DNA of 58,527 nt from Acidimicrobiales bacterium (GTDB taxonomy: Bacteria > Actinomycetota > Acidimicrobiia > Acidimicrobiales > RAAP-2). Made by a program: the position numbers and the translations under genes. The notes beneath the pieces were generated by a model. That model saw only the letters and a program-made list of their open reading frames with translations. It was not told the origin of the DNA and made no database searches. The stretch lies in NCBI GenBank assembly GCA_030039755.1, contig JASHUY010000082.1, positions 1 through 58,527 on the forward strand. The letters are read 5' to 3'. Positions 28,645 through 58,527 of this stretch are shown here, one piece after another. The first letter of the stretch is position 1, and the number at the start of each line of letters is the position of its first letter.

Positions 28645-29289
28645 ATGCCCAACGTACGGAACGCGGAGCGTCGTAGACAGATCCTCGAGGCGGCGATCCG
28701 GATCATCGGGCGGGACGGACCGGGCGCGGTGACGCACCGTGCCGTCGCTCTCGAAGCGGGAGTACCACTCGCAGCCACGACCTATTACTTCGCGTCCAAA
28801 GAGGAGCTTTTCAACGAAGCGCTCACGCTCTCGGTTCAGTCCGACCTGTCCGAGCTCGAGGAGCTGGTCGCCGCGGTGCCGTCGAGGATCGCCTCGGTCG
28901 AGATGTTCGCACAAGAGGTCGCCCGGTTCCTCGTGCTCCAGGTACGCCGCCGCCGTCCGACGGTCGTCGCGCAGTACGAGCTCGAGCTCGAGGCGGCGCG
29001 GGTTCCCGCGCTCAGGCCGGCAGCCCGGGCCTCGACCGACGCGTACATCCGTCTCTGCGAGGTGATGTTCGAGCGCGCCGGCTCCTCCAGCCCGAGTGGT
29101 GATGCCCGGCTCCTCGTGGCCCTGATGGACGGCCTGCTCCTCGACGAGCTTTCGGCGCCCCACCCGCGTTTCACCGTAGCGGCGGTGGCGCGGCAGCTGC
29201 AGCGCTTCATCGAGGGCCTTCTCGGCGTCGCTCGAGCGGACGACAACCGACGCGATGGCGAGCGGGCGGTGCGCGGAAAGACCGGTTGA
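28645..29289 (+). CDS. TetR-family transcriptional regulator (upstream of the VOC operon)
   Basis: The 214-residue protein has a classical N-terminal TetR HTH: ERRRQILEAAIRIIGRDGPGAVTHRAVALEAGVPLAATTYYFASKEELFNEAL (about 7-60). The C-terminal half is helical and would bind a ligand. ATG at 28645 gives the usual short N-terminus; ATG at 28594 or 28600 would add about 15-17 residues. The stop codon lies within the TTGACA of the next promoter, which carries the palindrome GGTACATATGTACC, so this protein is the first candidate to bind it. Confidence 0.88.
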   Translation: MPNVRNAERRRQILEAAIRIIGRDGPGAVTHRAVALEAGVPLAATTYYFASKEELFNEALTLSVQSDLSELEELVAAVPSRIASVEMFAQEVARFLVLQVRRRRPTVVAQYELELEAARVPALRPAARASTDAYIRLCEVMFERAGSSSPSGDARLLVALMDGLLLDELSAPHPRFTVAAVARQLQRFIEGLLGVARADDNRRDGERAVRGKTG

Positions 29290-29315
29290 CAAAAACGGTA
29301 CATATGTACCAAAAT
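29286..29315 (+). promoter_or_regulatory. Promoter with embedded 14-bp perfect palindrome (operator)
   Basis: TTGACA (29286-29291) and CAAAAT (29310-29315) are separated by 18 bases. The spacer contains GGTACATATGTACC (29297-29310), a perfect palindrome that would place a dimeric repressor between the two polymerase contacts. A close relative of this site occurs at 47209-47222. Confidence 0.65.
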
Positions 29316-29357
29316 GCGGTGGTTGGCACGAGCTGGTCGACCGAAGAGGGGACGAAT

Positions 29358-29819
29358 TTGGCGCGGACGGAGTTGGACCGGCACGTGGCCCGTATCCACC
29401 ACGTCGGCATCTCGGTCGGCGACCTCGAGCGCTCCGTTCACTTCTACCGGGACCTTCTCGGGATCGAGGTCATCGGAATCACCGGCGAGGAGGACGTTGG
29501 CTCAGTCTCCGGGATCACCGGCGCCCGTGCCCGGTTTGCGGACCTCGACGCGGGCAACGGGCAACTCCTCGAGCTCATCGAGTACCAGACAGGGACCGAC
29601 AGCCAGCCCCGGGCGGCGAATGCGGCGGGGACGTCGCACCTGTCTCTTCGCGTTGGGGACATGGGAGCCATGCTCACGGTGCTTGCGGCGGACGGGATCA
29701 CTCCGCTCGGCGCGACGGCAACCCTCTCGGGCGGCGTCTGGGAGGGTTGCACGGTGGTCTACGTCCGCGACCCCGACGGCATGATCGTCGAGCTCATCGA
29801 ACGAAGCGACGATGGCTGA
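29358..29819 (+). CDS. VOC/glyoxalase-family protein (methylmalonyl-CoA epimerase-like)
   Basis: This protein of about 153 residues has two beta-alpha-beta-beta-beta halves: RIHHVGISVGDLERSVHFYRDLLGIEV and TSHLSLRVGDMGAMLTVL. Candidate metal ligands are the His of RIHHVGI, Glu of LLELIEY, His of TSHLS and Glu of MIVELIER. The frame extends to 29286, but that start overlaps the promoter. TTG at 29358 has GAGGGG six bases upstream and is preferred. The reaction is not predictable; VOC enzymes include epimerases, dioxygenases and lyases. Its stop overlaps the SDR start. Confidence 0.82.
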   Translation: MARTELDRHVARIHHVGISVGDLERSVHFYRDLLGIEVIGITGEEDVGSVSGITGARARFADLDAGNGQLLELIEYQTGTDSQPRAANAAGTSHLSLRVGDMGAMLTVLAADGITPLGATATLSGGVWEGCTVVYVRDPDGMIVELIERSDDG

Positions 29820-30621
29820 CGGCCCACCTGCCATGTTCTCCCTCGAGGGGAAGGCGGCTCTTGTCACCGGCGCCGCGTCAGGCATCGGCTTGGCCGTCGC
29901 GTGCCGTTTCCACGAGGCGGGAGCCCGGGTAGCCGCGCTCGACATGCAGGAGTCCGACCAGCTCCGCGACAGAGGGATGGCCCTGCTCCGTGTCGATGTC
30001 AGCAAGGAGGAAGAGGTCGCCCGCGGGTTCGAGGAGGCGTCGGACCTGCTCGGCGACCTGGACGTGCTCGTGAACAACGCAGGCGTCGCGGGCGGGACGT
30101 GGCTCCTGGGTGAGCACCCGCGCGAAGACGTCGACAAGACCGTTGCCACCAACCTCTTCGGTGTCCTGTCGGGTCTCCGGCACGGACCCGCGCACATGAG
30201 GGATGGGGGCAGCATCATCAACACGGCGTCGATCGCCGGTCTCATGGCGTCACCCATGCTCGGCGTGTACGCGATGACGAAGGCGGGCGTCATTTCCCTC
30301 ACGACCACGGCCGCGCACGAGCTCGGCCATCGGGGCATCCGGGTGAACGCGGTCTGTCCCGGAACGGTCATCACGCCGATGGAGCCGGCGGACGGTGAGG
30401 AGGCGCGGGTCGCCCCGTTCGTGACCGCCCTGGGACGACCGGCGACCGTCGACGACCTCGCCGGCGTCTTCCACTTCCTCGCGGCCGACGAGAGCAGGTA
30501 CGTCACCGCCCAGGTGCTCGCCGTCGACGGAGGCTGGTCGGCGGGCTGGAACCAGCGAGCGTGGGACGCGCTGGTCGCTGCGGGACGACCCGGGCGGTCT
30601 CCTGCGGACCCGGACGAGTAG
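29812..30621 (+). CDS. Short-chain dehydrogenase/reductase (SDR)
   Basis: The 269-residue classical SDR has cofactor loop TGAASGIG (19-26), NNAG near 88-91, catalytic Ser near 140 and YAMTK (Y153, K157). The Asp after the second strand (AALDMQ) favours NAD(H). It is a soluble NAD-dependent dehydrogenase of an unknown hydroxyl or keto substrate. It overlaps the VOC gene by 8 bases and is followed after 10 bases by the decarboxylase. Confidence 0.93.
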   Translation: MADGPPAMFSLEGKAALVTGAASGIGLAVACRFHEAGARVAALDMQESDQLRDRGMALLRVDVSKEEEVARGFEEASDLLGDLDVLVNNAGVAGGTWLLGEHPREDVDKTVATNLFGVLSGLRHGPAHMRDGGSIINTASIAGLMASPMLGVYAMTKAGVISLTTTAAHELGHRGIRVNAVCPGTVITPMEPADGEEARVAPFVTALGRPATVDDLAGVFHFLAADESRYVTAQVLAVDGGWSAGWNQRAWDALVAAGRPGRSPADPDE

Positions 30622-30631
30622 CGACGAAGTC

Positions 30632-32080
30632 GTGGGGGGAGTGGTGACCTCGGCGGGGCGGCTCGACGAGAGCCTTTCGGTCCGCGATGGACGTCTCTTC
30701 GTAGAGCAGTGCGACGCCGTCGAGTTGGCGAGACGTTTCGGCACGCCGCTCTACGTCATCTCCGAGGATCAGCTCCGCCGGAACGCCCGACGCCTGTCGG
30801 CTGCCTTCTCGGCGAGCTGGGCCGGCCCCGTGCAGCTGCTGCCGTCGATCAAGGCCAACAACGTCCTCGCTCTCCGGCGCATCTTGACGGCCGAAGGTCT
30901 GGGCTGTGACACCTTCGGCCTTGCCGAGCTCGAGGCGGCACTCGGGTGCGGGGTGCCACCGGCGTTGATCTCCGTGAACGGAGCCGGCAAGTCGTCGGCG
31001 CTCGTCGAGCGCGCGGTCGCAGAGGGCTGTGCCGTCACTCTCGACGCGCCCCGTGAGCTCGAGCTCGCGGCATCGGCCGCCGACCGGACCGGCCGCCCGG
31101 CTCGCGTACGCGTACGGGTTCGTCCCGACCTGTCGGAGCTGGGGAAGCTGCCGAGCGACTTCAGCCCGGAGGGTGCGGCGATCGTCGACGTGGCGCGCCG
31201 GTACAAGGCGGGAATCCCGATGAACGAGCTCTTGCCAATGGGGGCTCGGGCGCTCAACGACGCCCGGATCGATCTGACCGGAGTTCACGCGCACCTTGCG
31301 CGCCACACGACCCGGCTCGATGCGTGGGCGACGATGATGCGGGCCTTCGGTGACACGGTCGGCACGCTGTCAGCTGCATGGGACGGATGGCAGCCCACCG
31401 AGCTCGATGTCGGTGGTGGCATCCCCACCGGTCGGGATCCGACCGGCACCGCCATCGAGAGGGTCGCGGCTGCCCGGGGCGAGACGCCCACCTTCGAGCA
31501 ATTCGCGGAGGTCATCGGATCCTCACTGGCCGAGACGATTGTCCGTTACGGCATCGATCCCCGTGCCACGACGCTCCAGGTGGAGCCGGGCCGCGCCTGC
31601 TATGCGGACGCCGGCACCCACCTCAGCACGGTGCTCAACGTGAAGCAGGAGACCGATCCTTCGCCGCCGCTTGTGTTCGTCGAGCTGGACACGAGCGAGG
31701 TGTTCCTGCTCGACGTCCATCTCGAGCACAATCGGTGGCAGGCGCACGTCGCCAACAAGATGGAAGCTGTCGCCACGCTCAAGGCCGACCTCGTCGGCAC
31801 GAGTTGCGGATTCGACACGATCGTGCCGGAAGCATCCCTGCCCGACGTTGGGCCCGGAGACGTGGTTGCGTTCCTGGACACGGGCGCCTACCAAGAAGTG
31901 TGCGCCAGCAATTTCAACGCGATGGGACGACCCGCGACGGTGCTCGTCTCAGGGGCCGACGCGCAGGTCGTCCGACGGGCCGAGACCTTCGCCGACGTGT
32001 TCGGGCGCGACCTCCCACCCTTGCCGAAGACGGCTGACCGAGAGGAGACTCAGTGCAAGGCGGTAACGAATCGCGCATAG
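30632..32080 (+). CDS. Fold-III PLP-dependent decarboxylase (LysA/ornithine decarboxylase-like)
   Basis: The 482-residue protein has the alanine-racemase-like barrel and C-terminal beta domain of group IV decarboxylases. The PLP lysine is in LPSIKANNVLAL near 70. The phosphate-binding Gly-rich segment is ELDVGGGIPTG, the conserved EPGR motif is in QVEPGRACYADAG, the catalytic-Cys region reads GTSCGFDTIVPE, and DTGAYQE is the usual aromatic site. Relatives decarboxylate diaminopimelate, ornithine or arginine; the sequence is too divergent to choose. The start could also be GTG at 30641 or 30644. Its 3' end overlaps the next gene by 28 bases. Confidence 0.87.
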   Translation: MGGVVTSAGRLDESLSVRDGRLFVEQCDAVELARRFGTPLYVISEDQLRRNARRLSAAFSASWAGPVQLLPSIKANNVLALRRILTAEGLGCDTFGLAELEAALGCGVPPALISVNGAGKSSALVERAVAEGCAVTLDAPRELELAASAADRTGRPARVRVRVRPDLSELGKLPSDFSPEGAAIVDVARRYKAGIPMNELLPMGARALNDARIDLTGVHAHLARHTTRLDAWATMMRAFGDTVGTLSAAWDGWQPTELDVGGGIPTGRDPTGTAIERVAAARGETPTFEQFAEVIGSSLAETIVRYGIDPRATTLQVEPGRACYADAGTHLSTVLNVKQETDPSPPLVFVELDTSEVFLLDVHLEHNRWQAHVANKMEAVATLKADLVGTSCGFDTIVPEASLPDVGPGDVVAFLDTGAYQEVCASNFNAMGRPATVLVSGADAQVVRRAETFADVFGRDLPPLPKTADREETQCKAVTNRA

Positions 32081-34035
32081 AGCACCTACGAGCGAGCCCC
32101 CGGCACGGTCGGCTCTCAGAGTCGGGGGGACGACCGCACGGGCTTCAGCGTCTCGCAGGGCCGATCCTCCGTTCGGCCGCTGCACTCGTCGTGGTCTCCC
32201 TCGCACTTGTGGCCAACTCAGGGGTGGCGGTCGCGTCGGGGGTCACAAAAACAGTCATCACCGACGCAGAGTTCGCCGGTTCACCGCCCAACTACATCTT
32301 CCCGTTCTCGACACTCGCGTACTTCAGCATTGCGAACGGCGACTTCGAGTACATGCTGTACCGACCGCTGTATTGGTTCGGGACAGGTTCAGCGCCGAAG
32401 CTCAACGGTTCGCTGTCGTTGGCACAGTCTCCGGTCGCCTCCAACGGCGATCGGACCTTCAAGATCACGTTGAAGCCCTACAAGTGGTCGAACGGGACGT
32501 CGGTGACCTCGACAGACGTTCTCTTCTGGATGAACATCTGGCGCCAGAAGCCGACAGGTTACGCCGGCTGGTTCCCTGGCGGGCTCTCGCTGCCGACAAG
32601 CCTGAAGTCGTTCACGGTCACAAGCAAGACGAAGTTCACGATGACTTTCACCCGCCGCCTCAATCCCCACTGGCTGCTCTACAACGAGCTCTCCGAGATC
32701 ACCCCGCTCCCGCTGGCGTGGACACGGACCTCCCTCTCCGCCGCCCCAGGTTCAGGCGGGTGCGCAACTGCCGCGTACGGGACCGCCGACGTCGCCTGCA
32801 AGGCTGTGTACGTCTTCTTGTCCGAGCAGTCGGGATTCGATCCGACAAGACCGAGCACAGCCATCGACGCGCTCCCGACGTACGACACGAACCCGCTGTG
32901 GCGGGTCGTCGACGGCCCCTGGTACCTGTCCTCGTTCGGTGCCACAGCGCCGGTGACCTTCAAGGCCAACCCGGACTACTCGGGTCCGAACAAGCCGACT
33001 TACAGGGAGCTCATCCTGAAGCCGTTCACGACAGAGGCATCCGAGTACGCGGCCCTCGTGGGAGGCACAGTGGAGGTCGGGGTGCTTCCCGCCACAGAAG
33101 TCACGTCGCCCGCGACCCCACCGTCGTCACCTTCGCAGAACCTGCACCCGGGTGCCAACAACCCCCGGCTTGCCTCGTCGTTCAACCTCGACCCCGTGTA
33201 CCGGTGGGGCTATGCCTATGTGACGCCCAACTTCAATTCGACGGGCGACCACGGGGTGGCTGGCCACATCATCCGTCAGCTCTACTTCCGTCAGGCCCTC
33301 CAGGCCCTGATCGACCAGCCGCTCTACATCAAGCGGCTGTACAAGGGCTATGCGGTCCCGACCTACGGGCCGGTCCCCATCTGGCCCAAGAACCCCTACG
33401 CGTCGAAGGCGGAATCACGCAACCCCTACCCGTACGATCCCGCGAAGGCGACCCGCCTTCTCCGCGATCACGGCTGGCGCGTCGTACCCGGCGGGACCGA
33501 CACGTGCCAGAAGCCCGGCTCGGGCCAGCACGAGTGCGGTGCGGGGATCAAGCGGGGCGCGAAGCTGAGCTTCACACTCCAGTACACGTCCGGCACAAAG
33601 GCTCTCGGCGATCTGATGGACGCGGAGCGCTCGAGCTGGGCGTCGGCAGGCATCCACGTCGTCCTGAGCAGCGCATCATCCGACACGGTCCTGGGCAAGC
33701 TCGTGCCTTGTCCGAAGGGCTGCTCATGGGAGCTGGAGGACTACGGCCTGGGCTGGATCTACTACCCCGACTTCTACCCGACCGGCGAGGAGACCTTCGC
33801 TTCGGGAGCCTCGTCGAACGCAGGTCTGTTCGACACAGAGCGGAACGACCGCCTCATCTTTCAGACCGACACCACGCGGACGAGCTTGACGGCCTACGAG
33901 AACTGGCTCGCTCAACGTCTTCCCGTCGTGTGGGAGCCGCAGGTCGAGACACTCTACGAGTTCCACAAGGGCATCACGCACCGGCCGATGGACCCCTTGC
34001 AGAACAACACACCGGCCACATGGCACTGGTCCTAA
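32053..34035 (+). CDS. Family 5 extracellular solute-binding protein (module B, first)
   Basis: The 660-residue protein has a signal peptide after an unusually long basic N-region (hydrophobic core about 41-56, AAALVVVSLALVANSG). There is no lipobox cysteine. SBP_bac_5 features include YRPLYWFG, KPYKWSNGTSVTSTDVLFWMNIWR and RQALQALIDQPLYI. GTG follows a GAGGAG site. No permease is directly beside it; it probably serves the importer at 39024-43026, which has its own binding protein. ACA is frequent among Thr codons (9 of 21 counted from codon 66 on). Confidence 0.92.
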   Translation: MQGGNESRIEHLRASPRHGRLSESGGRPHGLQRLAGPILRSAAALVVVSLALVANSGVAVASGVTKTVITDAEFAGSPPNYIFPFSTLAYFSIANGDFEYMLYRPLYWFGTGSAPKLNGSLSLAQSPVASNGDRTFKITLKPYKWSNGTSVTSTDVLFWMNIWRQKPTGYAGWFPGGLSLPTSLKSFTVTSKTKFTMTFTRRLNPHWLLYNELSEITPLPLAWTRTSLSAAPGSGGCATAAYGTADVACKAVYVFLSEQSGFDPTRPSTAIDALPTYDTNPLWRVVDGPWYLSSFGATAPVTFKANPDYSGPNKPTYRELILKPFTTEASEYAALVGGTVEVGVLPATEVTSPATPPSSPSQNLHPGANNPRLASSFNLDPVYRWGYAYVTPNFNSTGDHGVAGHIIRQLYFRQALQALIDQPLYIKRLYKGYAVPTYGPVPIWPKNPYASKAESRNPYPYDPAKATRLLRDHGWRVVPGGTDTCQKPGSGQHECGAGIKRGAKLSFTLQYTSGTKALGDLMDAERSSWASAGIHVVLSSASSDTVLGKLVPCPKGCSWELEDYGLGWIYYPDFYPTGEETFASGASSNAGLFDTERNDRLIFQTDTTRTSLTAYENWLAQRLPVVWEPQVETLYEFHKGITHRPMDPLQNNTPATWHWS

Positions 34036-34080: not shown

Positions 34081-35550
34081 GTGATCGCGGCGTACCCAGA
34101 CAAACTCAGCTACCTCCCGGGCGAGTGCGTGAAGGTCATGTGCTCTACCGACCACCCAAGCTTCCGAGGAGAAGTGAGGCTCGAAAGTCGGCCGCAGGAG
34201 CTTGTCCGGCATCTCGTGGAGCACCGCGGCCTTTTCCAGGAGGTGCCCGCGCACGCGTCCTCGGAGGGCTGCGGCTGGAGGGAGACGTTCACCGTTCCGA
34301 TCGACCACCGCTGGCCGTCCGGCGTCTACTCGCTGACCTTGCACACGGACTCGCCCACGGAGGTTGCCCGCGCTCTGTTTGCGGTCAGGCCTCGCGTGCC
34401 GAGCACGCCGATATTGCTCGTGCTCTCTACGAACACCTACAACGCGTACAACGACTGGGGCGGACCCAACCTCTACGAGGGAGGAACGAGGGTCTCGTTC
34501 ATGCGCCCCCTCGCCCCGGGGCTTGTCTACAAGGAAGAGCCTGCAGCCCGAATCGCCGATATCTCCACAGCTGGCCTGAAGGATGCTCTGGACGGGTATC
34601 GGCGCTGGGCGATGGAGCGCGGTCTGTCGGTGTGGTCCGGCGCGGCAGGTTGGTGGAATTGGGAAAGAAGATTCTTCGGATGGGCCGAGAAGTCAGGCTT
34701 CCGTATGGACGTCGCGACGAACGCCGATCTCGAGTTCCATCCAGAAGTGCTCGACGGTCACCGACTCGTCGTCAGCGTGGGTCACGACGAGTACTGGTCA
34801 TGGGGCATGCGTGACAATCTTGAATCTTTCATCGGCGCGGGTGGCAACGTGGCGTTCTTCTCGGGAAATGCCGTGTGTTGGCAAATCAGATATGAGGACG
34901 ATGGGAATGCCTTCGTGGCTTACAAGTATTTCTGCACAAGAGACCCAGTAGTGGACAGCGAGAATGCCCACCAACTGACGAGCATGTGGAGTGATCGGCG
35001 TATTGGAAGACCTGAGAACGAGCTCACCGGCGTGAGCTTTACGCGGGGAGGGTATGTGCGGTTCGGCCAAGGAGTGCCGCGGGGTTCGGGCGGATACACG
35101 GTGTGGCGACCAGAGCACTGGGCATTAGAAGGTACCGGCGTCCGCTACGGCGACCAGGTTGGCATGAGCGATCGTGTGGTCGCGTACGAGGCGGACGGCT
35201 GCGACTTCGTTCTCCGGGATGGGCTCCCTACCGCGACGCACACGGACGGCACTCCACCAGAATTCGAGATTCTCGCGACGTCGCCAGCACACCTCTGGGC
35301 GACGGACGAATTGCCGAACACATTTCTCGGCGAGCCGGGCGACCTCGAGATGGCGGCTCACTGTGTTCTGGGGGACGCATCGCAGACGCAGGTGCGGAGG
35401 TTTGCACATGGCAACGCGGTCATGGGGATGTACACGCGGGGCGGGACGGTGTTCACGACCGGCTGTACGGACTGGTCCTACGGCTTGGATCGGCCCGATC
35501 CGGTCGTCGAGCGAATTACTGCGAACGTGCTCGAGCGCTTGTCGGCGTAG
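34081..35550 (+). CDS. N,N-dimethylformamidase large-subunit-family protein (paralogue 1)
   Basis: The 489-residue protein resembles the catalytic C-terminal region of the DMFase beta subunit family. The hallmarks are NTYNAYNDWGG (118-128) and GHDEYWSWGMRD (234-245). In DMFase a mononuclear iron is held by two Tyr and one Glu; by order and spacing Y120 or Y123, Y150 and E237 are the likely equivalents here. DMFase hydrolyses N,N-dimethylformamide, but family members are diverse, so I infer only an iron-dependent amide hydrolase. No signal peptide is visible, and no small (alpha) subunit is encoded nearby. It follows the binding protein by 45 bases. Confidence 0.83.
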   Translation: MIAAYPDKLSYLPGECVKVMCSTDHPSFRGEVRLESRPQELVRHLVEHRGLFQEVPAHASSEGCGWRETFTVPIDHRWPSGVYSLTLHTDSPTEVARALFAVRPRVPSTPILLVLSTNTYNAYNDWGGPNLYEGGTRVSFMRPLAPGLVYKEEPAARIADISTAGLKDALDGYRRWAMERGLSVWSGAAGWWNWERRFFGWAEKSGFRMDVATNADLEFHPEVLDGHRLVVSVGHDEYWSWGMRDNLESFIGAGGNVAFFSGNAVCWQIRYEDDGNAFVAYKYFCTRDPVVDSENAHQLTSMWSDRRIGRPENELTGVSFTRGGYVRFGQGVPRGSGGYTVWRPEHWALEGTGVRYGDQVGMSDRVVAYEADGCDFVLRDGLPTATHTDGTPPEFEILATSPAHLWATDELPNTFLGEPGDLEMAAHCVLGDASQTQVRRFAHGNAVMGMYTRGGTVFTTGCTDWSYGLDRPDPVVERITANVLERLSA

Positions 35551-43034: not shown

Positions 43035-43736
43035 GTGCCCAAACTGATCGATCACGACGTGCGGCGGGCAGAGCTCGCGTCCGCCGTATGGACGGTAGTC
43101 ACGGAACGCGGCCCCGAGGGCGCGACCGTACGCGAGATCGCTCGGGCATCCGGGTGGTCGACCGGCGTCATCTCCCATTACTTCCGCGACAAGAATGACC
43201 TGATTCGCTTTGCCTTCAATCTCTCGATCGAACGCTCCGTCGAGCGGATCCTCGCACACGCAACCAATCAGGCGCCCCTCGAAGCAATTCGGATCATCCT
43301 CCAGGAGTCGCTGCCGAGCTCCGAGGAGCAACGCGTCGAGAATCGCGTCTGGGGCGTTGTGCTCGGCCAGGCCTTCACCGATCCGGACCTCGCGCTCGAG
43401 TTCCGTTCGCTGTACCGGCAATGGAAGGATCGCCTCGTCCGACTGGTTGTCCAGGGCCAAGCCGATGGTTCGATACGTCAAGACGTAGACGCCGAGCAAT
43501 GGGCGAGATTGGTAATGGCGATCGTCGACGGCTACACGATCCAGTCGTTCTACCTATCGAGTAGCCGGGAAGATCAACGGGAGCAGGTCGCCACGCTGGA
43601 CCGCTATGTCGAGGATATCGCATCGACGAGGAGAGAAACGGTCGAAGGTGTCCCGGCCGCTCCGCGCCGAAGGTTCGCGGAGGTGGAACCCGTTGTCAAA
43701 CCCCGTAGGGGGAGTCGCCGGACTCCGTCTCGCTGA
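43035..43736 (+). CDS. TetR/BetI-like transcriptional regulator at the end of the importer 2 operon
   Basis: The 233-residue protein has a TetR HTH at about 10-58 (AVWTVVTERGPEGATVREIARASGWSTGVISHYFRDKNDLI). The C-terminal part resembles BetI-type ligand domains. GTG follows TAGGAGG. The last 13 codons overlap the convergent decarboxylase gene by 41 bases, and its Arg-rich tail may be a by-product of that overlap. It is a second candidate for the GGTAC-type sites nearby. Confidence 0.88.
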   Translation: MPKLIDHDVRRAELASAVWTVVTERGPEGATVREIARASGWSTGVISHYFRDKNDLIRFAFNLSIERSVERILAHATNQAPLEAIRIILQESLPSSEEQRVENRVWGVVLGQAFTDPDLALEFRSLYRQWKDRLVRLVVQGQADGSIRQDVDAEQWARLVMAIVDGYTIQSFYLSSSREDQREQVATLDRYVEDIASTRRETVEGVPAAPRRRFAEVEPVVKPRRGSRRTPSR

Positions 43737-47275: not shown

Positions 47276-47353
47276 GTGACCGCCGAAGACACCCTTGCAG
47301 CAGGCGGACTCGTGATCCACGTCCTAAGTAGGTTGAAATACACGGTCAGCTGA
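47276..47353 (+). CDS. 25-codon small ORF coupled to the C45 hydrolase gene
   Basis: GTG at 47276 is preceded by AAAAGGAGG, one of the best ribosome sites in the window. The frame encodes VTAEDTLAAGGLVIHVLSRL plus five residues and stops with TGA overlapping the ATG of the next gene (TGATG). The C45 gene itself has no good ribosome site, so translation probably couples through this leader. It could instead be a relict N-terminus. No function is assigned. Confidence 0.5.
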   Translation: MTAEDTLAAGGLVIHVLSRLKYTVS

Positions 47354-50335: not shown

Positions 50336-52180
50336 TTACAGCTCGACCCGTGGTACGTCCGCCATGAGTTGCCTCGTGTACGCCTCGTCGGAGTGATCGA
50401 GAACCGCCTCCGACGGCCCACGGTCAACGACGCGACCGTCCCTCAGCACGATGATGTCCTGACCGATGCTGCGCACCAGGGCCAAGTTGTGGGTTATGAA
50501 GATCATCGTCAGGTGGCGTTCCTGCTGCAACGATCGGAGCATCTCGATGATCACAGCTTGTACGGAAACGTCGAGGGCAGAGGTGACCTCATCGCAGATG
50601 AGCATTTCCGGCTCGACGACCAGCGCACGCGCTATCGCTACTCGCTGGCGCTCTCCTCCGGAGAGCTCATCAGGGAAGAGGTCGAGATAGCGCTCGTTGA
50701 GCGAGACACTCTCCAGCGCCGCACGCGTCCGCTCCGCTCGCTCATGGGCTTTGATCTCGAAGAACTGTCTGAGCTGCTGTGACACGATCTGTTCGACGGT
50801 GTGACGCGGATTGAGCGAGGTGTAGGGATTCTGGAATATGTACTGGATCCGCCGAAGAGCGACCGAGGGCCGTTGCCGCGCTGACCGCGCCAACTCCTGA
50901 CCATCAAAGCGGAGCTTCCCCTTCCAGTTGCTGTGGAGCCCGGCGATGCAGCGGGCGAGAGTCGTCTTGCCCGAGCCCGATTCGCCCACTACGGCCAGGC
51001 ACCTGTCAGTGTCCACGGTTAGGTCCACTCCGAAAAGAACCTGGGAGTCCCCGTAGAAGGCGTCGAGGGCCTCAACAGAAAGTAGTGATGCCTTTGAAGT
51101 TACCGGGCGGACGGTCGGGACGAGCATCTTCCTCTCCATCGAGCCGCGCAACTCACTGGCGCGGTGACAGCGGACCTGCTGATTGCCGACGGATTGCGTC
51201 GTCGGCGCCTCCATCCGACAGCGCTCGATTACCCAAGGACACCGGGTCGAGAACGAGCAACCTTGGGGTCGCCGGCCTGGCGGCGGGGGTTGACCGGGTA
51301 TCCCCTGCAGCACGTGTGCGCGCTCAGGCGAGGGCACGGCGTCGAGTAGGGAGCGAGTATAAGGGTGTCCCGGGCGGCTGAACACCTCTGCCGTCGGACC
51401 GAGTTCGATCAGTTGGCCCGCGTACATGACCGCGACGGTAGTGGCGAGCCCGTCAACCACGGCGAGGTCGTGGCTGACGTAGACGGCCGCCACGTCGTAA
51501 AGGCAGCACAGCGATCGCACGCTGTCGAGGACATGCCGCTGGGTGGTTACATCAAGGCCGGTCGTCGGCTCGTCTAGGACGATCAATGAGGGTCTGCACG
51601 AGAAGGCCATCGCCAAGGCAACGCGCTGTTGCTGCCCACCCGAGAGCTGGTGAGGATAGCGACGGAGCACGTTCGCCTCTAGGCGGGCCTCGCCGAGGAT
51701 GTCGGCAAGGCGCGCTTCGATGGCTCGGGCCTCGATCTGGTGGCTGCTCAGCGCCTCTCGCAACTGAATTCCAATCCGAAGCGCGGGGTTGAGCGCTGCC
51801 GACGGATCTTGAGGCACGTACGCGACACGAGCCCCACGCAGGTTGCGTAGCTGGCGTGCTGGGATGCTCAACAAATCAACCCCGTTTAGGCGAACTTCTC
51901 CGGCAGCAATCGCCAGGCCACGCCGACTGTGACCGAGCAAACCCAATGCGATCGTCGTCTTGCCGGATCCGGACTCTCCGACAAGTCCGAGGACTTCGCC
52001 TGCAGCGACGTCAAACGAAACGTCGGTAACGATCGCTACTCCGTGTTCTCCGAGTCGAACCTCGAACCCACGCACCTCGAGCACGGTTGAAGCGGACCCT
52101 GGGACTGCCTTCGCGAATCCGACCGGATTTGCCGCGATTCCCCGAAGCGGAATGGCCAGCGGTGTGGGCATCTCTCCCAT
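50336..52180 (-). CDS. Opp/Dpp-type double ATPase, DppD-DppF fusion (system 3)
   Basis: The 614-residue protein has two ATPase domains. The first has GESGSGKTT near 67, LSGGQQQRV, LIVLDEPTTGLD and YVSHDLA with a CSFSTRCPWVIERC extension. The second has GESGSGKTT near 400, LSGGERQRV, MLICDEVTSALD and FITHNLA. Unlike the system 2 fusion, the second domain lacks the C-terminal cysteine extension. It starts with an ATG overlapping the permease stop (TAATG). It is the last gene of the operon. Confidence 0.94.
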   Translation of the reverse strand: MGEMPTPLAIPLRGIAANPVGFAKAVPGSASTVLEVRGFEVRLGEHGVAIVTDVSFDVAAGEVLGLVGESGSGKTTIALGLLGHSRRGLAIAAGEVRLNGVDLLSIPARQLRNLRGARVAYVPQDPSAALNPALRIGIQLREALSSHQIEARAIEARLADILGEARLEANVLRRYPHQLSGGQQQRVALAMAFSCRPSLIVLDEPTTGLDVTTQRHVLDSVRSLCCLYDVAAVYVSHDLAVVDGLATTVAVMYAGQLIELGPTAEVFSRPGHPYTRSLLDAVPSPERAHVLQGIPGQPPPPGRRPQGCSFSTRCPWVIERCRMEAPTTQSVGNQQVRCHRASELRGSMERKMLVPTVRPVTSKASLLSVEALDAFYGDSQVLFGVDLTVDTDRCLAVVGESGSGKTTLARCIAGLHSNWKGKLRFDGQELARSARQRPSVALRRIQYIFQNPYTSLNPRHTVEQIVSQQLRQFFEIKAHERAERTRAALESVSLNERYLDLFPDELSGGERQRVAIARALVVEPEMLICDEVTSALDVSVQAVIIEMLRSLQQERHLTMIFITHNLALVRSIGQDIIVLRDGRVVDRGPSEAVLDHSDEAYTRQLMADVPRVEL

Positions 52181-53100
52181 TACGTCGGCGCGGACTCGAG
52201 CAGTGCGGCCTCCTCGGTACGTCGCTCGAGTCCGATCGTCACTCGAGCCACGGCGTCGGTAAAGGTGTTGGTGCCGATCGTCAGCAGTGCGATTAGCAGT
52301 GCCGGTACCACCACTCCCCAGGGGTTGGCGACGATCGCAACACGGTTTGTATTGATCATCGTTCCCCAGTTCGCAGCGGGAGGTTGCGGACCGAAGCCGA
52401 GGAAGCTTAGACCGGAAATGATAATGATGGAGTAGGTCAGCCGGATCCCAATTTCAACCATGAGAGGGCTCACGAGGTTCGGTAGTAACTCCTTGGTGAT
52501 GATCCGATGCGTCCGCATCCCCTGCAGTTCGAGCACCTTGATGAAATCTCGCTCAGACAGGTCGAGCGTGGCCGAACGGAGCACACGCGCTACCTGGGGA
52601 AGATGGGAGATGCCAACTGCAAGGACGATCAACCAGAGCTTGGGTCCGACAAGACTCACAAGCAAGAGGGCAAAGATGATCTGCGGAAAGGCGAGAAGGA
52701 CGTCGACCGTCCGCATGACCAAACCGTCAATACGACCTCGAACGTAGGCGGCGTAAATGCCGGCAGCCGAGCCGACGGCAACCCCCAAGGTAGTCGCTGC
52801 GAAGGCCATTGCGAGGAGCACCCAGCCCCCGCCGAGGACTCGGGACAGCACGTCTCGCCCGAGGACATCGCCTCCGAGAAGAAACTGCGAACTTGGTCGT
52901 GCGAAAGGAGTGGTAACGATCGCCGTTGTCGAATAGGGCATGACAAATGGTCCAACGATGGCGACGAGCACTACGAACCCGCTCAAGGCGAGTCCGGTAG
53001 TTCCTCGTCCAGTTCTCGCCGCGGTGATGAGCGTACTGCGACGGCGACGCCGCACGCTGACTGCGGCCGGGCTAGCCATCGCTTGTCTCGATCGATGCAT
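52180..53100 (-). CDS. Opp/Dpp-type ABC importer permease, DppC-like (system 3)
   Basis: The 306-residue DppC-like permease shows FLLGGDVLGRDVLSRVLGGGWVLL and the coupling loop SERDFIKVLELQGMRTHRI...ELLPNLVSP near 188-215. It has an Arg-rich N-terminus before the first helix. It lies 1 base after the DppB-like gene; ATG at 53079 is an alternative start. Confidence 0.92.
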   Translation of the reverse strand: MHRSRQAMASPAAVSVRRRRRSTLITAARTGRGTTGLALSGFVVLVAIVGPFVMPYSTTAIVTTPFARPSSQFLLGGDVLGRDVLSRVLGGGWVLLAMAFAATTLGVAVGSAAGIYAAYVRGRIDGLVMRTVDVLLAFPQIIFALLLVSLVGPKLWLIVLAVGISHLPQVARVLRSATLDLSERDFIKVLELQGMRTHRIITKELLPNLVSPLMVEIGIRLTYSIIIISGLSFLGFGPQPPAANWGTMINTNRVAIVANPWGVVVPALLIALLTIGTNTFTDAVARVTIGLERRTEEAALLESAPT

Positions 53101-53101
53101 C

Positions 53102-54097
53102 TCAGCGAGCGATTCTGCGTCGAGGAGTGGCGAGGAGCGCGATCACGTCCGTGAGAATGTTGATGACGACGTAGAAAGCAGCAAGGATGAGGACGATTAT
53201 CTGGATTACCGGCAGATCGCGGTCGGCTACAGCATTGACCAGCCCTTGACCAATGCCGGGAAAATCGAACACCGTCTCGACCACGACGATGCCTCCTGCC
53301 AGATACAAGAACACGAGCCCGATCACCTGGATGGTTGGCCCGACCGCGTTGGGGAGGGCATGGACAAGGACGACGCGACGCTCGGAGAGGCCCTTCAGGC
53401 GTGCCATTTCCACGTAGTCTGATTCCAAAGCCTCAACCATCGCGGCTCGCGTCATGCGCTGCATGTACGGGACGATGATCAGAACGAGCGTCGTTACAGG
53501 CAAAACCATCAGACGGGGCTGGGACCAGGCGTACGTTCCCGGACTGATCATTGACACGGCAGGCAGCAAGTGGAAGACCAGCGTGGACAAGAGAATGATC
53601 AGCGCGATGGCCACAACGAATGTCGGCAGCGCAGCAACGCCAAGGAAGACGACCGAGCTTGCGTGATCGAAGAAGCTGTCTTTGCGGAGCGCGGCGAGCG
53701 CGCCAAGACCGACACCGAGCACCGTCCCGATCGCACCGCTGACCAGGACGAGAAACGCGGAATTGACGAGACGGGGCTCGACCTGTCCCCAGACGGGCAT
53801 ACCGTTGGCGAGCGAGTCACCGAGCCGCCCGGAGAGGAGGCCCGTGAGCCAGATCCAGTATTGGTCGAAGATACCTCGGTTGAGGTGCAGTTGATGCTCA
53901 AGGGCAATAACGCGCGCCCTGCTCGCCGTGTGGCCGAGAATGGCATAGGCGGCATTGCCGGGCAATACTTCGGTCGCAAGAAAGACGATCGTTGCCACGA
54001 CCAGCAGCGTGGCCACGCCGAGTGCGGCACGTCGCCAGAGCAGTTGAGCGATCGGGTGTGGTCGTTTTGCGGTGAGCCTCCCCGTCACTACCACCAT
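53102..54097 (-). CDS. Opp/Dpp-type ABC importer permease, DppB-like (system 3)
   Basis: The 331-residue DppB-like permease has N-terminal LLWRRAALGVATLLVVATIVFLATEVLPGN and the coupling loop SDYVEMARLKGLS...HALPNAVGP near 228-255. The ATG follows GGGAGG and overlaps the upstream C45 gene by 10 bases, tying importer and hydrolase together. Confidence 0.93.
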   Translation of the reverse strand: MVVVTGRLTAKRPHPIAQLLWRRAALGVATLLVVATIVFLATEVLPGNAAYAILGHTASRARVIALEHQLHLNRGIFDQYWIWLTGLLSGRLGDSLANGMPVWGQVEPRLVNSAFLVLVSGAIGTVLGVGLGALAALRKDSFFDHASSVVFLGVAALPTFVVAIALIILLSTLVFHLLPAVSMISPGTYAWSQPRLMVLPVTTLVLIIVPYMQRMTRAAMVEALESDYVEMARLKGLSERRVVLVHALPNAVGPTIQVIGLVFLYLAGGIVVVETVFDFPGIGQGLVNAVADRDLPVIQIIVLILAAFYVVINILTDVIALLATPRRRIAR

Positions 54098-55164
54098 CTC
54101 ATCACCTCCCAGGTGCCGAGATGGGGCGGCCCCGGGCAGATTTGCAGATCGGGGGGATAAATAGATGGCTCAGCGCTGATAAGTGCCGCGATAGCAGCGA
54201 AAGTCGCCGTGTCTCGCAGCTCGGTTGGCGTGACACTGACCGGAACACTTCGATCCGCGAGGATTCGCTTTACGTCCTCCAGCCCGGAGCCGGGCTGAAA
54301 CGCAGTCCTGATGAATGCCAATCGCTCTGCCGAGGTTGAGCCGCGAGAGCTGGCAGAAGTGCGCCACGACCCGCCTTCGTCGAACCGCTTCGTTACGGGG
54401 TGATTGGTATGGCATAGCAGACCGCCCGCCACCGCGACCTCGACCACCTCATCACTCGAGCATTCGAAGCCGCGAATGACGCCCGGCCCGGCGAGCGCGT
54501 AGTGCTGCCCAGACGCGTGGGGAATCTCGGTGACGAGCTTGCATGCTTGGGCGAACGACGGGGTTTCGAGAAGCGTGCGCAATACGAAAGCGACGGGTAG
54601 GCCTGCCGGGGAGTGGGTGAGCATCGGCATGGTGTTGACGCATACGCCAAGCCCGTGGCGCGCGATTCCCGTAAGGCCGATCATTCCTGCCGCCGTCAAC
54701 ACCATCGACTCTGAGCCAGCGCGGGTTTCCAGATGGAGCAAGAGCTGCGAGCCGTCGAGGTAGCTCGGAAGGTCCATGTTCTGGGCCAGGAGCGCGGTTG
54801 CCTGCTTGCGCTGCACTCCGGCGGAGACCGTAGCACCGAGCACACTGCATCCCGACCCTTGCTCGGCCAAGTGCCACCACTGCTCGTCCATGAAGTTGTA
54901 GGTAAGCACGTCGCTGAGATCGGCGTGAGCTGCCTCGGCGATCCCACGGACCTCTTCGAGAAGGTCGGGTGCCAGTGCCTCGCAGATGGCGACAAAGTGG
55001 GTTTCAGCAAGGAAGGATTCGAGGTAGCGACGAGGGGAATCACCCGTCGCACGCCCGAGCGCGTCATGCCAGCGCTGGAGCGCATCGGCTATGAGGTCGC
55101 GAGCCGCCTCACCGTGGGCCTGCCCCCGGGCCCGTCCTGATCCCCGGCACTCGATCACCTGCAT
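54088..55164 (-). CDS. C45-family autoproteolytic acyltransferase/amidohydrolase (second copy)
   Basis: The protein of about 358 residues has the C45 N-terminus MQVIECRGSGRARGQAHGEAA (spread over the start), EEVRGIAEAAHADLSDVLTYNFMDE, and the self-cleavage site GSGC/SVLG with the nucleophile Cys near 106. Further features are LLAQNMDLPSYLD and GIARHGLGVCVNTMP. It is closer to classical acyl-CoA:6-APA acyltransferase-like proteins than the copy at 47353. ATG at 55164 has AGGTGG upstream; ATG at 55179 is an alternative. It probably cleaves an amide bond in the compound imported by system 3. Confidence 0.87.
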   Translation of the reverse strand: MQVIECRGSGRARGQAHGEAARDLIADALQRWHDALGRATGDSPRRYLESFLAETHFVAICEALAPDLLEEVRGIAEAAHADLSDVLTYNFMDEQWWHLAEQGSGCSVLGATVSAGVQRKQATALLAQNMDLPSYLDGSQLLLHLETRAGSESMVLTAAGMIGLTGIARHGLGVCVNTMPMLTHSPAGLPVAFVLRTLLETPSFAQACKLVTEIPHASGQHYALAGPGVIRGFECSSDEVVEVAVAGGLLCHTNHPVTKRFDEGGSWRTSASSRGSTSAERLAFIRTAFQPGSGLEDVKRILADRSVPVSVTPTELRDTATFAAIAALISAEPSIYPPDLQICPGPPHLGTWEVMRWW

Positions 55165-55261
55165 CGTCACCACCTGCATCCTCGTCGCAACATGCGCACG
55201 CGATGCACCGACCGGTTACGAATTTCGCTCCGACCAACTTCATGCGGCTGTGTGTACGACA

Positions 55262-56404
55262 TCAGCCCCTCGCCTCCGCTTCTATCTCGACGACCATGTG
55301 CTCGAAGGCGAGGGCGGGAAGGCCGACCAGACTGACTTCAACCTCCTCTCCGAGTGCCTGTCGCAGCAGCGAAGCAACCAGAGATCGATCGGCGTGAGTG
55401 GTATTGCGGAAGAAGGCAGTGACACGGAGAAGGTCGGTCAGGCCGAGCCCGAAAGGTGCAAGGACCACCTCGATGTTTCGCAGGCTTCGCGTCGTCTGGA
55501 CCGCAAGCTCGTCCGGGTTAATGACAGCGGCAGTGCTCGTGAGTGACACCTGTCCACCGACGAGCGCGGTCCTGCCGACAAGGCATCCGTGGCGGTACGG
55601 GAGATGGAATGGCCAGTCCCAGTGCCCTTCGGGGGAGGAGTGGGCCACCTCGCCTGCACCGTCCCGTCTCTTAACGGCGAGTAGCTGCATTACGATCAAT
55701 TCGCCTGGTCGCGCTAACCACGGCACGGGAATACCAGTTGCTACCGGCCCAGGTTCGTCGAAGTACTTGGAGCGGACACGAGCGGCCGTTGCCCAGTCCT
55801 CCATCGTCCCGGAACCGACATAGTAGATGTTGAACTTCACCGCTTCCGCGAAGGTGGCGCCGCACGCTCGAATTGCGGCGTCCAGTTCACTCATAAGCCT
55901 GTGCGACTGCTCGGCGATCCCCCCTTCCCCTGGTCGGCCGCGGCCACTTACAAAGATGACGTTGCCGGTTGCAAGCCGGTCTGGGAAGAGGCTCGACCCA
56001 TCGGCGTGAGCGTGCCCGCTGTCAGGCGACTTGCCGTCCGCAGGTGGCAATTCGATTTGGATCGGTGTCGGCGAGGAGATTGCTTGTAAGACGAGGCGCC
56101 TGCCGGCCTCAGGAGGCATCGGCATGGGTACGAGGAGCACGCTGGGTTTGACAGTCTCGCCGAGGGCTTCTGAAAGCTCCGATTCGATGTCGGAAGGTGC
56201 CGCCAGCGCTTTGTCGTAGAACGCATCGAGACTTAGGCAAGATCCGAGCGAGCGACCAGCCGCCTGCAACCGCCGCTCGATACGCCGGAGTTCGAATTGC
56301 ACGCTCTCGCGAAGTCGGCTTCCTCCGCTCCGCTTATCGAGCCCACTCTCGGTGCCGATGAAAGCCAGTCCGTCGACCGTGTCGGAGGGCTGGCGGGCGT
56401 TCAT
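55262..56404 (-). CDS. Three-domain RidA/YjgF-family protein
   Basis: The 380-residue protein is three RidA-like domains in a row: about 10-112, 138-247 and 265-380. Domain 2 shows NVIFVSGRGRPG, AAIRACGATFAEAVKFNIYYV and RPGELIVMQLLAVKR. Domain 3 shows LVGGQVSLTS and LRNIEVVLAPFGLGLTDLLRVTAFF. Single RidA proteins form trimers and hydrolyse enamines/imines, so this fusion may be a one-chain trimer. The Arg needed for deaminase activity in RidA is not seen at the expected place in any domain (domain 2 reads ATGIPV there). The function is therefore uncertain. It starts 10 bases after the MmgE/PrpD stop. Confidence 0.82.
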   Translation of the reverse strand: MNARQPSDTVDGLAFIGTESGLDKRSGGSRLRESVQFELRRIERRLQAAGRSLGSCLSLDAFYDKALAAPSDIESELSEALGETVKPSVLLVPMPMPPEAGRRLVLQAISSPTPIQIELPPADGKSPDSGHAHADGSSLFPDRLATGNVIFVSGRGRPGEGGIAEQSHRLMSELDAAIRACGATFAEAVKFNIYYVGSGTMEDWATAARVRSKYFDEPGPVATGIPVPWLARPGELIVMQLLAVKRRDGAGEVAHSSPEGHWDWPFHLPYRHGCLVGRTALVGGQVSLTSTAAVINPDELAVQTTRSLRNIEVVLAPFGLGLTDLLRVTAFFRNTTHADRSLVASLLRQALGEEVEVSLVGLPALAFEHMVVEIEAEARG

Positions 56405-56414
56405 GGCATCCCGT

Positions 56415-57887
56415 TCATGACTTCCGTCGAGTTGTCCGACCGAGCTGACGCGGGAACAACGCGTCGAGGTTGCTCAGTTGGTCGAGGCAGCTTACGGCAT
56501 GTGCCAGGTCCGCGGCGCCTGTTCGACCGAGGCTTGGCACGGCGAGCCGCATGAATTTCTCCTCCAGCTGCATCTCGCTGAGCGGACGCTGCGGGCCGCC
56601 GCTCGGATGTTCCGCCGACCCCTCGAGCCAATCGCCGGAGCGCAGCTCGATCCGCACCTTGGCCGGCATCCGACTGCGGTCCTCGTCGTAGATCCGGGTG
56701 AACTCGGAATCAGACGAGAACCTCACCCTCTCCGACAATGCCCCGATATCCGGATTGGCGAGGCGACGCGGGTCGTACCACTCCGGCCCCGGCTGCACGG
56801 CGAGCAGCGCCATGCTGACGGCGTAATTGATGCTGAACTCGGCGTCCACGAGGTTCGCTGGATGCGGGTCTGTGAAGCCGAAGTCTTCGATCACGCCGAC
56901 ACCGACGACCTCGACACTCGCCACCTCGTTAGACGTGAGTGGTCGGCCGCGGGTGGCATCGATGACGGCGTCGAGGGTCGTGTGCAACCAGCGGCAGCAG
57001 CTGTAGGGTTTGATGCCGGAACTAAGAATCCGCCACTCGCTGCCGAGGCCATCGGTCAGCTCAGCCTCTCTCAGCTGGTCCGAGGCGCTCATCCGCCAGA
57101 GCGATCTGGTCCCCTCGAGCACCCGCCTTGGGCCGCGGAATCCCGCTGTTCGTAGGCGACAGGCCTGCACACCGCCAAAGGCGGCCCAGGCGACGCTGTC
57201 CTTGTGCCACGACAGGGGGCGCTCGCCCCAATTCCACTGCCGAGCCGAAGGGAGGCTCGCAATCACGCCAGCCAGACCGAGTACCTCTGCAGTCTCGAGG
57301 GACGGCATGCCGCTCGCCCTGGCCGCCGCGGCGGCGGCACCGAGCGTCTGGTGGGTCCCGATTCCCCACACCTCTGCCTCTCGCCCGACCGACGGCCAGA
57401 TCGAAGCGGCGACGCGTTCGCTTACCTCATAACCGGCGATAATCGCCACGAGGAGCCCCTGCCCGTCGACATGGCGCTCTTCTCCGACTGCAAGCGCAGA
57501 GGACACCACGCTTGAAGCAGGATGGCCGAACAGCGATGACTCGTCGTAATCGAGCGCGTTCACGTAGAAGGCATTTAGCAGTGCCGCCACCTCGGCTGCG
57601 GTCGTTTCATCGTGGCCGAGTAAGTGGGCCGAACCCTGGGCTGCAGCGAGGTTCCCATAAGCCACGAGCACTGCTTCGCCGAGCTCGGTCGTCGATCCAG
57701 CCAGTCCACAGCCGAGCGAATCGAGCAGTATCCGCTTGGCTGCGGCGACGACCGGCTCAGGCAGTTCGCTATAGGTAAGACCGCTGCAGAACTCCGCCAG
57801 CGCCGAGGTCGGAGAGGGCACTTGGGCCTTGCTCTGCACGTCGAGCTGGGCAGACGGGACCGTCGAGCTAGTCAATCCAGGCCTCAC
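56415..57887 (-). CDS. MmgE/PrpD-family protein
   Basis: This protein of about 490 residues is in the MmgE/PrpD family (2-methylcitrate dehydratase, iminodisuccinate epimerase, cis-aconitate decarboxylase relatives). Recognisable segments are AKRILLDSLGCGLAGS, AFYVNALDYDES...GHPASSVVSSALAVGE, GIGTHQTLGAAAAAARASGM and KPYSCCRWLHTTLDAVI. GTG at 57887 overlaps the binding-protein stop by 20 bases; an ATG at 57959 would overlap by 92 bases and is less likely. In this setting an iminodisuccinate-type substrate or a hydroxy-acid dehydration are possible, but neither can be shown. Confidence 0.87.
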   Translation of the reverse strand: MRPGLTSSTVPSAQLDVQSKAQVPSPTSALAEFCSGLTYSELPEPVVAAAKRILLDSLGCGLAGSTTELGEAVLVAYGNLAAAQGSAHLLGHDETTAAEVAALLNAFYVNALDYDESSLFGHPASSVVSSALAVGEERHVDGQGLLVAIIAGYEVSERVAASIWPSVGREAEVWGIGTHQTLGAAAAAARASGMPSLETAEVLGLAGVIASLPSARQWNWGERPLSWHKDSVAWAAFGGVQACRLRTAGFRGPRRVLEGTRSLWRMSASDQLREAELTDGLGSEWRILSSGIKPYSCCRWLHTTLDAVIDATRGRPLTSNEVASVEVVGVGVIEDFGFTDPHPANLVDAEFSINYAVSMALLAVQPGPEWYDPRRLANPDIGALSERVRFSSDSEFTRIYDEDRSRMPAKVRIELRSGDWLEGSAEHPSGGPQRPLSEMQLEEKFMRLAVPSLGRTGAADLAHAVSCLDQLSNLDALFPRQLGRTTRRKS

Positions 57888-58527
57888 GGAAGCGGTAGGT
57901 CGTGAGCGAGAAGGAGCTGCGATCAGGGACGAAGCCCTGGACTCGTGCGTTGTGGGCATCGATCTGGTTGTACCAACCCCAGTTCAGATAACCGCCCTCG
58001 TCCCATTCGATCTTTTGCGCTTCGTGAATCAGCTCGGTTTGCTTGACCTTTGTAATCGTCGCGTAGGCCTCGGTGACGTACTTGAGCCATTCTTCGTTGT
58101 GCCAGTGCGTTTCGTTGTATGGAGCGGTGGGCAACATGCTTGTGGCTGCTTGGACGAGGAAGTCCCGAGTGGCCCAGTAGGTAACCGAAAACGTGCTCTT
58201 CAAGAAGTACTTGGCAAAGAAGGCTGTCGGCGTCGCGTTGAGGACGCTGACATTCACGCCAGCGGCGACCGCTTGGGCGGCAAAGACTTCAGAAGCCTCG
58301 ACCACCCCGAGAGCGACGTCGGAGGTAACAAGCTGGACCGACATCCCTTCTCTACCGGCCTGCTTGAGCAGACTTTTGGCTTGATCGATGTCCTGACGGC
58401 GTTGCGGAAGGGCGTCGTCGTATGCTGGGTCGTAGCGACCGTAAAGGTCGTTCGCGATGGATCCCTGCCCGTCGAGCACAGAGGTGATGAGCCCGGGTCG
58501 ATTAGCAATCAACCGAAAGGCTTGGCG
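57868..58527 (-). CDS. Family 5 extracellular solute-binding protein (system 3), C-terminal part
   Basis: The frame is open to the window edge and reads RQAFRLIANRPGLITSVLDGQG at the right end, a typical SBP_bac_5 core segment. It continues with IDQAKSLLKQAG and ends YRFREAWID. About 219 residues are visible; the N-terminus and signal peptide lie outside. It is the receptor of importer 3 and the first visible gene of this minus-strand operon. Confidence 0.9.
   Translation of the reverse strand, partial: RQAFRLIANRPGLITSVLDGQGSIANDLYGRYDPAYDDALPQRRQDIDQAKSLLKQAGREGMSVQLVTSDVALGVVEASEVFAAQAVAAGVNVSVLNATPTAFFAKYFLKSTFSVTYWATRDFLVQAATSMLPTAPYNETHWHNEEWLKYVTEAYATITKVKQTELIHEAQKIEWDEGGYLNWGWYNQIDAHNARVQGFVPDRSSFSLTTYRFREAWID

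Follow-up and report, generated by a model that had tools for sequence, protein, structure and literature searches.

The DNA analysed here, referred to as the window, is a stretch of 58,527 nucleotides from an Acidimicrobiales bacterium. It is the whole of contig C145 of a 2.98-Mb draft genome, which is in 247 contigs, is 70% complete and is probably a metagenome-assembled genome. Directly behind its tRNA-Glu (CTC) gene the window holds a foreign-looking block of ~42 kb (16502-58527), the right end of which is outside the contig. The block carries oligopeptide permease (Opp)-type transport genes interspersed with amidohydrolases and other enzymes. An earlier note on this DNA had read positions 28645-58527 as a single pathway that imports and dismantles one amide-linked compound. 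Here we argue that the block is probably part of a genomic island in which separate uptake units are accompanied by enzymes of their own.

Genes of the window

Gene families were assigned using Pfam, with further sources named where they were used. The core flank includes gltX, encoding glutamyl-tRNA synthetase (14015..15526, + strand), which is syntenic in the genus. ARAGORN places tRNA-Gln (CTG) at 16324..16396 (+), in an order kept in relatives, and tRNA-Glu (CTC) at 16428..16501 (+). The latter marks the left end of the island, as judged by the border of genus homology and by 36-base repeats in relatives. A ROK-family regulator follows (16632..17834, - strand; start picked inside a longer open reading frame, ORF). 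Next is unit A (17992..28193, +), with genes for a GFO/IDH/MocA protein, a sugar-isomerase-like protein, two Opp permeases, two ATPases, a family 5 solute-binding protein (SBP), and a second GFO/IDH/MocA and sugar-isomerase-like pair. This sugar-type uptake region (16632-28193) sits at the island's left end, outside the stretch covered by the earlier note. The block had been taken to start at 28645. Its left end is at 16502, and the sugar-type genes, with an Opp set additional to the two described before, belong to the same compositional block.

From 28645 the + strand encodes a first TetR regulator (28645..29289; TetR_C_31), a VOC/glyoxalase-like protein (29286..29819), a short-chain dehydrogenase/reductase (SDR; 29812..30621) and ODC, a pyridoxal phosphate (PLP)-dependent decarboxylase of the ornithine/diaminopimelate type (30632..32080; also NCBIfam and PDB). 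The gene between TetR and SDR was relabelled VOC-like from NCBIfam matches, all below cut-offs; Pfam took another frame there. Unit B comprises SBP2, a second family 5 SBP (32053..34035, +), the dimethylformamidase (DMFase)-family proteins DMF1 (34081..35550, +) and DMF2 (35745..37277, +; 67% identical to DMF1), a third family 5 copy, SBP3 (37289..38965, +; matched on a longer ORF, start picked by eye), two Opp permeases (39024-39992 and 39989-40951, +) and a fused double ATPase (40948-43026, +). Both DMFase-family proteins match DMFA2_C (E-values of 1.2e-75 and 2.8e-73). A second TetR regulator, of BetI type, lies behind them (43035..43736, +).

PLPdc, a second PLP enzyme, is on the - strand (43696..44940; Pfam and PDB). 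It is followed by ARG, a ureohydrolase of the agmatinase/guanidino-acid hydrolase type (45033..46052, +; arginase family, E-value 1.8e-86; also TIGR01230, PDB and a tree), and by CYC (46077..47021, -), a weak and partial match to the Cyclase family (E-value 8.7e-11). The C45 amidohydrolase C45a (47353..48459, +), a medium-chain dehydrogenase/reductase (MDR; 48490-49488, +) and PhyH (49522-50262, +) come next. The remaining genes are on the - strand. These are Opp set 3, with a fused ATPase and two permeases (50336..54097); the second C45 amidohydrolase, C45b, whose gene overlaps a permease gene by 10 bases (54088..55179; also PDB); RidA, a multi-domain Rid-like protein (55262..56404; Pfam and NCBIfam); an MmgE/PrpD family protein, MmgE (56415..57959); and the C-terminal part of a family 5 SBP (57868..58512; profile positions 226-345 of 368), the gene for which runs off the contig end. 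The two C45 proteins match C45/AAT in Pfam (E-values of 1e-9 and 3.7e-18) and C45_proenzyme in NCBIfam (203 and 172 bits, cut-off 85).

Much of what the earlier note had listed was recovered by these searches: two complete Opp permease/ATPase sets from 28645 onward, receptor genes (SBP2, SBP3 and the contig-end fragment), two DMFase-family proteins, the ureohydrolase, the cyclase-family hydrolase, two C45 amidohydrolases, SDR, MDR, PhyH and MmgE/PrpD.

The block starts behind tRNA-Glu

Contiguous DNA homology with 8 of the 12 same-genus genomes terminates at 16501, the final base of tRNA-Glu. Listed matches from the remaining 4 do not cover or cross this border. To its right, the listed genus matches are short pieces, chiefly within ATPase genes. 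On the core side, the order of gltX, a DUF218 gene, tRNA-Gln and tRNA-Glu is the same in same-genus genomes. Base composition also differs between the two sides. Two core blocks have GC contents of 0.73 and 0.71, whereas the four blocks of the island have 0.66, 0.66, 0.64 and 0.63, and GC at third codon positions drops from 0.90-0.95 in 6 core genes to 0.67-0.89 in 34 island genes. Tetranucleotide correlation is 0.98 within the core and 0.85-0.94 from core to island. Because of this composition break and the genus DNA search, we dropped the reading that these are ordinary host genes. The co-location described by the earlier note is real; by composition and genus homology there is one apparently acquired block with its left end at 16502.

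The 74-base tRNA-Glu is identical in seven genus loci. In one relative (G006:C80, L216), the final 36 bases of tRNA-Glu occur twice without mismatch, ~6.5 kb apart, and a Phage_integrase gene adjoins one copy; the integrase-bearing element so flanked spans 41-6691. In another (G009:C6, L217; 4068-6240), a HipA gene has a copy of the tRNA-Glu 3' end on either side, with 0 and 2 mismatches; this is a small tRNA-borne insertion. Four genes behind tRNA-Glu in relatives were tested for integrase identity. One is a clear integrase (L066) and one scored 26.4 of 27.1 bits, under the cut-off (L067). Since an integrase-bearing element of the genus is flanked by copies of the tRNA-Glu 3' end, our preferred reading of the block is a genomic island borne by this tRNA gene.

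The border could also be an assembly join. The tRNA-Glu sequence, shared among genus loci and partly repeated in elements, would then have led the assembler to link the core with a block that belongs elsewhere in the genome or to a different organism. The composition break falls exactly at tRNA-Glu, as a join there would predict, and the assembly is an incomplete draft. Moreover, a genus contig (L065) stops 2 bases past tRNA-Glu and a family-level contig (L074) begins at it, so a join has to be reckoned with. However, genus insertions use the same site, and hence an identical break is expected without any join. A homologue of unit B, at 56-71% identity, is also present in the same assembly. 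We therefore regard an assembly join as unlikely.

DMFase-family proteins and an Opp importer

That homologue is on contig C190, where the order SBP3-permease-permease-ATPase is repeated. The SBP3 homologue is 56% identical and the permease and ATPase homologues are 59-71% identical, with two separate ATPase genes. A DMFase gene (59%) accompanies the set, at the opposite end compared with the window. The six C190 neighbours checked encode TetR, ECH, amidohydrolase, FAD amine-oxidase-like and acyl-CoA-ligase-like proteins and one protein without a family. The comparison spanned 40 kb and found no homologue of ARG, C45 or RidA.

We modelled DMF1 from 25 sequences (pLDDT 90.2, pTM 0.92). In Foldseek, the model matched nine N-acetyl-(R)-beta-phenylalanine acylase/DMFase chains at 8e-24 to 1e-20 (TMq 0.56-0.59). 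Only acylase/DMFase chains matched at 1e-20 or better, and the next fold match reached only 5e-7. A DMFase study gives Y399, Y440 and E521 as iron ligands, with H519 nearby, and describes the large subunit as inactive without the small subunit (PMC7686228). When the alignment of DMF1 to the PDB profile was read by eye, Y123, H235 and E237 corresponded to Y399, H519 and E521. These three residues, and Y132, are invariant in 25 of 25 alignment rows. Y132 is a possible but uncertain equivalent of Y440, the second tyrosine ligand. Because of the fold match and the invariant iron-site residues, DMF1 is likely to be an iron amidase, a prediction drawn from sequence and model.

PLP enzymes and the ureohydrolase

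The earlier note had named decarboxylases of two PLP folds. This stands for ODC, the nearest PDB entry being a diaminopimelate decarboxylase (LysA in NCBIfam, 213 of 298 bits). It is uncertain for PLPdc, which is nearest to sphingosine-1-phosphate (S1P) lyase in the PDB (6.9e-45, against 5e-28 for the best amino-acid decarboxylase). Ten S1P-lyase sequences head that ranking, ahead of the decarboxylases. By contrast, Pfam and NCBIfam assign it to decarboxylases, although the top NCBIfam model, MfnA, scores 232 of 299 bits, below the cut-off.

ARG matches TIGR01230 with 185 bits (cut-off 174), and its nearest PDB entries are named agmatinase 2 and guanidinobutyrase. The substrate specificity of a protein such as ARG cannot be deduced from a family match. 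Human AGMAT illustrates that an agmatinase name can mislead (PMC9772407). In a tree omitting pieces under 270 residues, below 35% identity or with a stop, including the cut ARG of L198, the 11 genus copies form one starred clade and the island copy is outside it.

A PLPdc homologue occurs in 5 of the 9 order loci with ARG of at least 58% identity, and Pyridoxal_deC is named in two of these (L193 and L195). Among 11 genus loci, 10 have the homologue beside ARG, and the eleventh is cut by the contig end. Pyridoxal_deC is named in L205, and a dienelactone hydrolase in L205 and L209. At L205:4421-7882 the dienelactone hydrolase gene lies between those of Pyridoxal_deC and the ureohydrolase, and a gene close by matches the ADI family weakly (PF02274, 3.4e-6). 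The gene pairs of L205-L215 possibly serve arginine or guanidino-acid use. The genus arrangement made an agmatine route, decarboxylase then ureohydrolase, attractive for the island as well. We rejected it; the PLP enzyme of the window is nearest S1P lyase and is divergently placed. Elsewhere, ARG homologues are found with TetR and a cytosine permease in two Streptomyces plasmids. In two order genomes (L200 and L204), ureohydrolase homologues (~50%) are beside Opp permease and ATPase genes.

C45 and Rid-like proteins

The nucleophile cysteine was aligned for C45b and read by eye for C45a. Eleven C45 loci were examined (L161, L164-L169, L172, L175, L176 and L199). An Opp set accompanies C45 in 3 of them, from Shinella (L166), Sulfitobacter (L169) and Nonomuraea (L176). 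The Sulfitobacter locus also has M55, P1 and M42 peptidases.

Plasmid pEMPC1 of Sinorhizobium BG8 (L161; NZ_CP044012.1 793000-838000) has homologues of C45a (40%), RidA (29%) and C45b (41%) within 15 kb. Ten neighbours were scanned, and these include glutamine-synthetase-like, DAO, ALDH, deacetylase and Rieske genes. The stretch 9584-29705 of this locus has two C45 genes, a Rid-like gene, two polysaccharide-deacetylase-family genes and the glutamine-synthetase-like, DAO and ALDH genes. At two RidA loci (L162 and L163), C45 or DMFase matches were not found; the edge of L162 touches an annotated C45 gene.

RidA had been described as a three-domain protein. It is a Rid protein with two Pfam stretches, and the third domain was not borne out. 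We take the catalytic arginine of RidA to be Arg105. In the 152-243 domain, alanine is opposite the YabJ arginine. The PDB chain aligned to the 264-378 domain has itself no arginine at that position. The alignments cover these two domains.

Conservation of the gene set in other genomes

Of 594 confirmed relatives in a scan of genome contigs for DMFase homologues, the 80 best were analysed further. Loci were compared at 1e-8 with flanks of up to 10 kb; flanks were full in 37 of the 80, and 43 were under 21 kb. None of these loci has a homologue of ARG, C45a, C45b, CYC, RidA, MmgE, ODC, PLPdc, MDR or PhyH, though with such flanks C45b, RidA and MmgE at their window spacing could be missed. SDR is present in 10, and ABC ATPase or GFO/IDH genes are present in several. 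The full Opp set is beside DMFase in one (L140). Among these loci (mainly L100-L155), DMFA2_C proteins are frequent in records of Poribacteria, Planctomycetota and Verrucomicrobiota; a full Opp set beside them was not found at 1e-8. Nine further DMFase loci from the order, 6.3 to 20 kb long, were compared at 1e-10. Homologues of ARG, C45a, C45b, CYC, RidA, MmgE and ODC were not found; a PLPdc homologue is in one (L054), SDR in two and ABC ATPase in three.

Across 198 order genomes, with our own counted, SBP3 and ODC each occur in 1 (1e-50), RidA in 1 (1e-20), and C45a and C45b each in 4 (1e-20). C45b occurs in 1 of 396 phylum genomes (1e-30). Plasmid searches listed 14 of 14, 20 of 67, 20 of 66 and 20 of 205 records, and further searches listed 30 of 649, 15 of 624 and 15 of 26, with loci picked by hand. 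In a limited literature search, no paper was found with dimethylformamidase and agmatinase together, with 'C45 family peptidase' together with oligopeptide and ABC transporter, or with 'phenylalanine acylase' together with dimethylformamidase.

The alternative of a single pathway holds that amidases, ureohydrolase, PLP enzymes and Rid protein act in sequence on one imported amide or guanidino compound. All units being in one compositional block, with tight gene spacing inside units, would fit. So would the grouping of C45a, RidA and C45b homologues on the BG8 plasmid with glutamine-synthetase-like, DAO and ALDH genes, the PLPdc homologues beside ARG in genus and order loci, and the unit A-like genes around a DMFase gene in one MAG locus (L080). 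However, the partner genes were not found in the 80 DMFase loci (37 with full flanks), and the unit B of C190 adjoins other genes. In L195 and L205, the decarboxylase beside ARG has 4obu as its nearest match, from a different subfamily than the S1P-lyase-like enzyme of the window. In BG8, a DMFase or ARG match was not found at 1e-5 in the 45 kb compared, and in the window the strand switches five times among genes from 28645 on. We consider a single pathway quite improbable. Still less probable is a specific version in which Opp imports an N-acylated guanidino or amino-alcohol compound. DMFase-fold and C45 amidases would free it from its acyl group, an S1P-lyase-like aldolase and the ureohydrolase would split the core, and Rid, MmgE and PhyH proteins would complete the breakdown; if it were true, the BG8 cluster would be a partial version.

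Hence, the evidence does not bear out one new pathway: partner genes were not found in the 80 DMFase loci compared, and C190 unit B and ARG have other company. The relatives examined do not keep the set together, which is near the outcome named beforehand as refuting the proposal. Conversely, import coupled to C-N bond hydrolysis holds at the level of modules, as DMFase with Opp (C190) and C45 with Opp (L166, L169 and L176).

Discussion

In the reading that we favour as probable, the tRNA-Glu (CTC) gene hosts a genomic island at its 3' end, of which the window holds the left 42 kb, and this part is a mosaic of uptake units with their own enzymes. The mosaic would consist of three Opp-type units, A, B and D, plus the loose genes C. 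Unit A would be a sugar-acid or polyol-like uptake unit. Unit B would combine SBP2 and SBP3, permeases and an ATPase with two putative iron amidases of the DMFase fold, and unit D an SBP, permeases and an ATPase with C45 amidohydrolase, Rid-like and MmgE/PrpD proteins. The loose genes would include the ureohydrolase, the second C45 protein and the S1P-lyase-like PLP enzyme. Binding proteins may deliver a peptide-like or N-acyl compound (B and D) or a sugar derivative (A). Within the cell, an amidase would then hydrolyse the amide bond, and the remaining enzymes would pass the parts into metabolism. The families, the gene order, the insertion point and the recurrence of two modules are observed directly. 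We infer the substrates, the cellular site of hydrolysis, the regulation and the service of different compounds by different modules.

Several observations weigh against this reading. An integrase was not found among the window genes scanned with Pfam, and an exact repeat of the tRNA-Glu end of at least 14 bases was not found within the window. The island's far border is outside the contig, and without integrase and second repeat its right end is open. Both repeats of L216 are near the two ends of their contig, and 2 of the 4 genes tested behind tRNA-Glu are not integrases. The composition of C190 is host-like, so that the donor of the island is not settled. ARG is not rare; at 1e-50 it occurs in 48 of the 198 order genomes and, at ~66% DNA identity, in 11 of 12 genus genomes. 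The island ARG is a long branch, about whose placement the tree tool warns. In each genome the searches scored just a few top candidates, and the rarity of island genes may therefore be overstated. In L080, one of the 80 DMFase loci, from a Bauldia sp. MAG (2500-16900), a DMFase homologue is amid GFO/IDH, isomerase-like, ROK and ABC ATPase homologues. This gene set partly resembles units A and B. Together with the C45a/RidA/C45b cluster of BG8 and PLPdc beside ARG, which extends to nearly all the genus loci, it hints at links beyond single modules. For the loose genes C, the module idea rests on little.

Taken together, import coupled to amide hydrolysis, module by module, is credible. The island illustrates one way in which a lineage within the order may acquire uptake capacity, namely at tRNA-Glu. 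It also offers two small testable units as the best leads, a DMFase-fold amidase with an Opp importer and a C45 amidase with an Opp importer.

Genomic islands that are borne by tRNA genes and carry catabolic functions are a known general kind in bacteria. The block differs from them in that integrase and second repeat were not found in the window and the right end is outside the contig. It resembles them in its foreign-looking composition from the tRNA 3' end, in the integration site used within the genus and in its transport and catabolic load. Its enzymes also have known counterparts. PLPdc has S1P lyase (PDB 3mad) as its best PDB match but has 414 residues compared with 514. ARG, through the arginase family and TIGR01230, resembles the agmatinase and guanidino-acid ureohydrolases (PDB 9fek, 7oi1 and 3nio). 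C45b matches the C45 acyl-CoA:6-APA acyltransferase (PDB 2x1d; 2.1e-15) with the cysteine aligned; unlike that family, it is placed in an Opp uptake unit. DMF1 shares DMFA2_C, the fold match and the invariant Tyr, His and Glu around the iron site with DMFase and acylase (PDB 6lvb and 8i5a). Conversely, it has 489 residues compared with 727-775, is 16-21% identical, superposes with a root-mean-square deviation of 7.6-8.5, and is coupled to an Opp importer.

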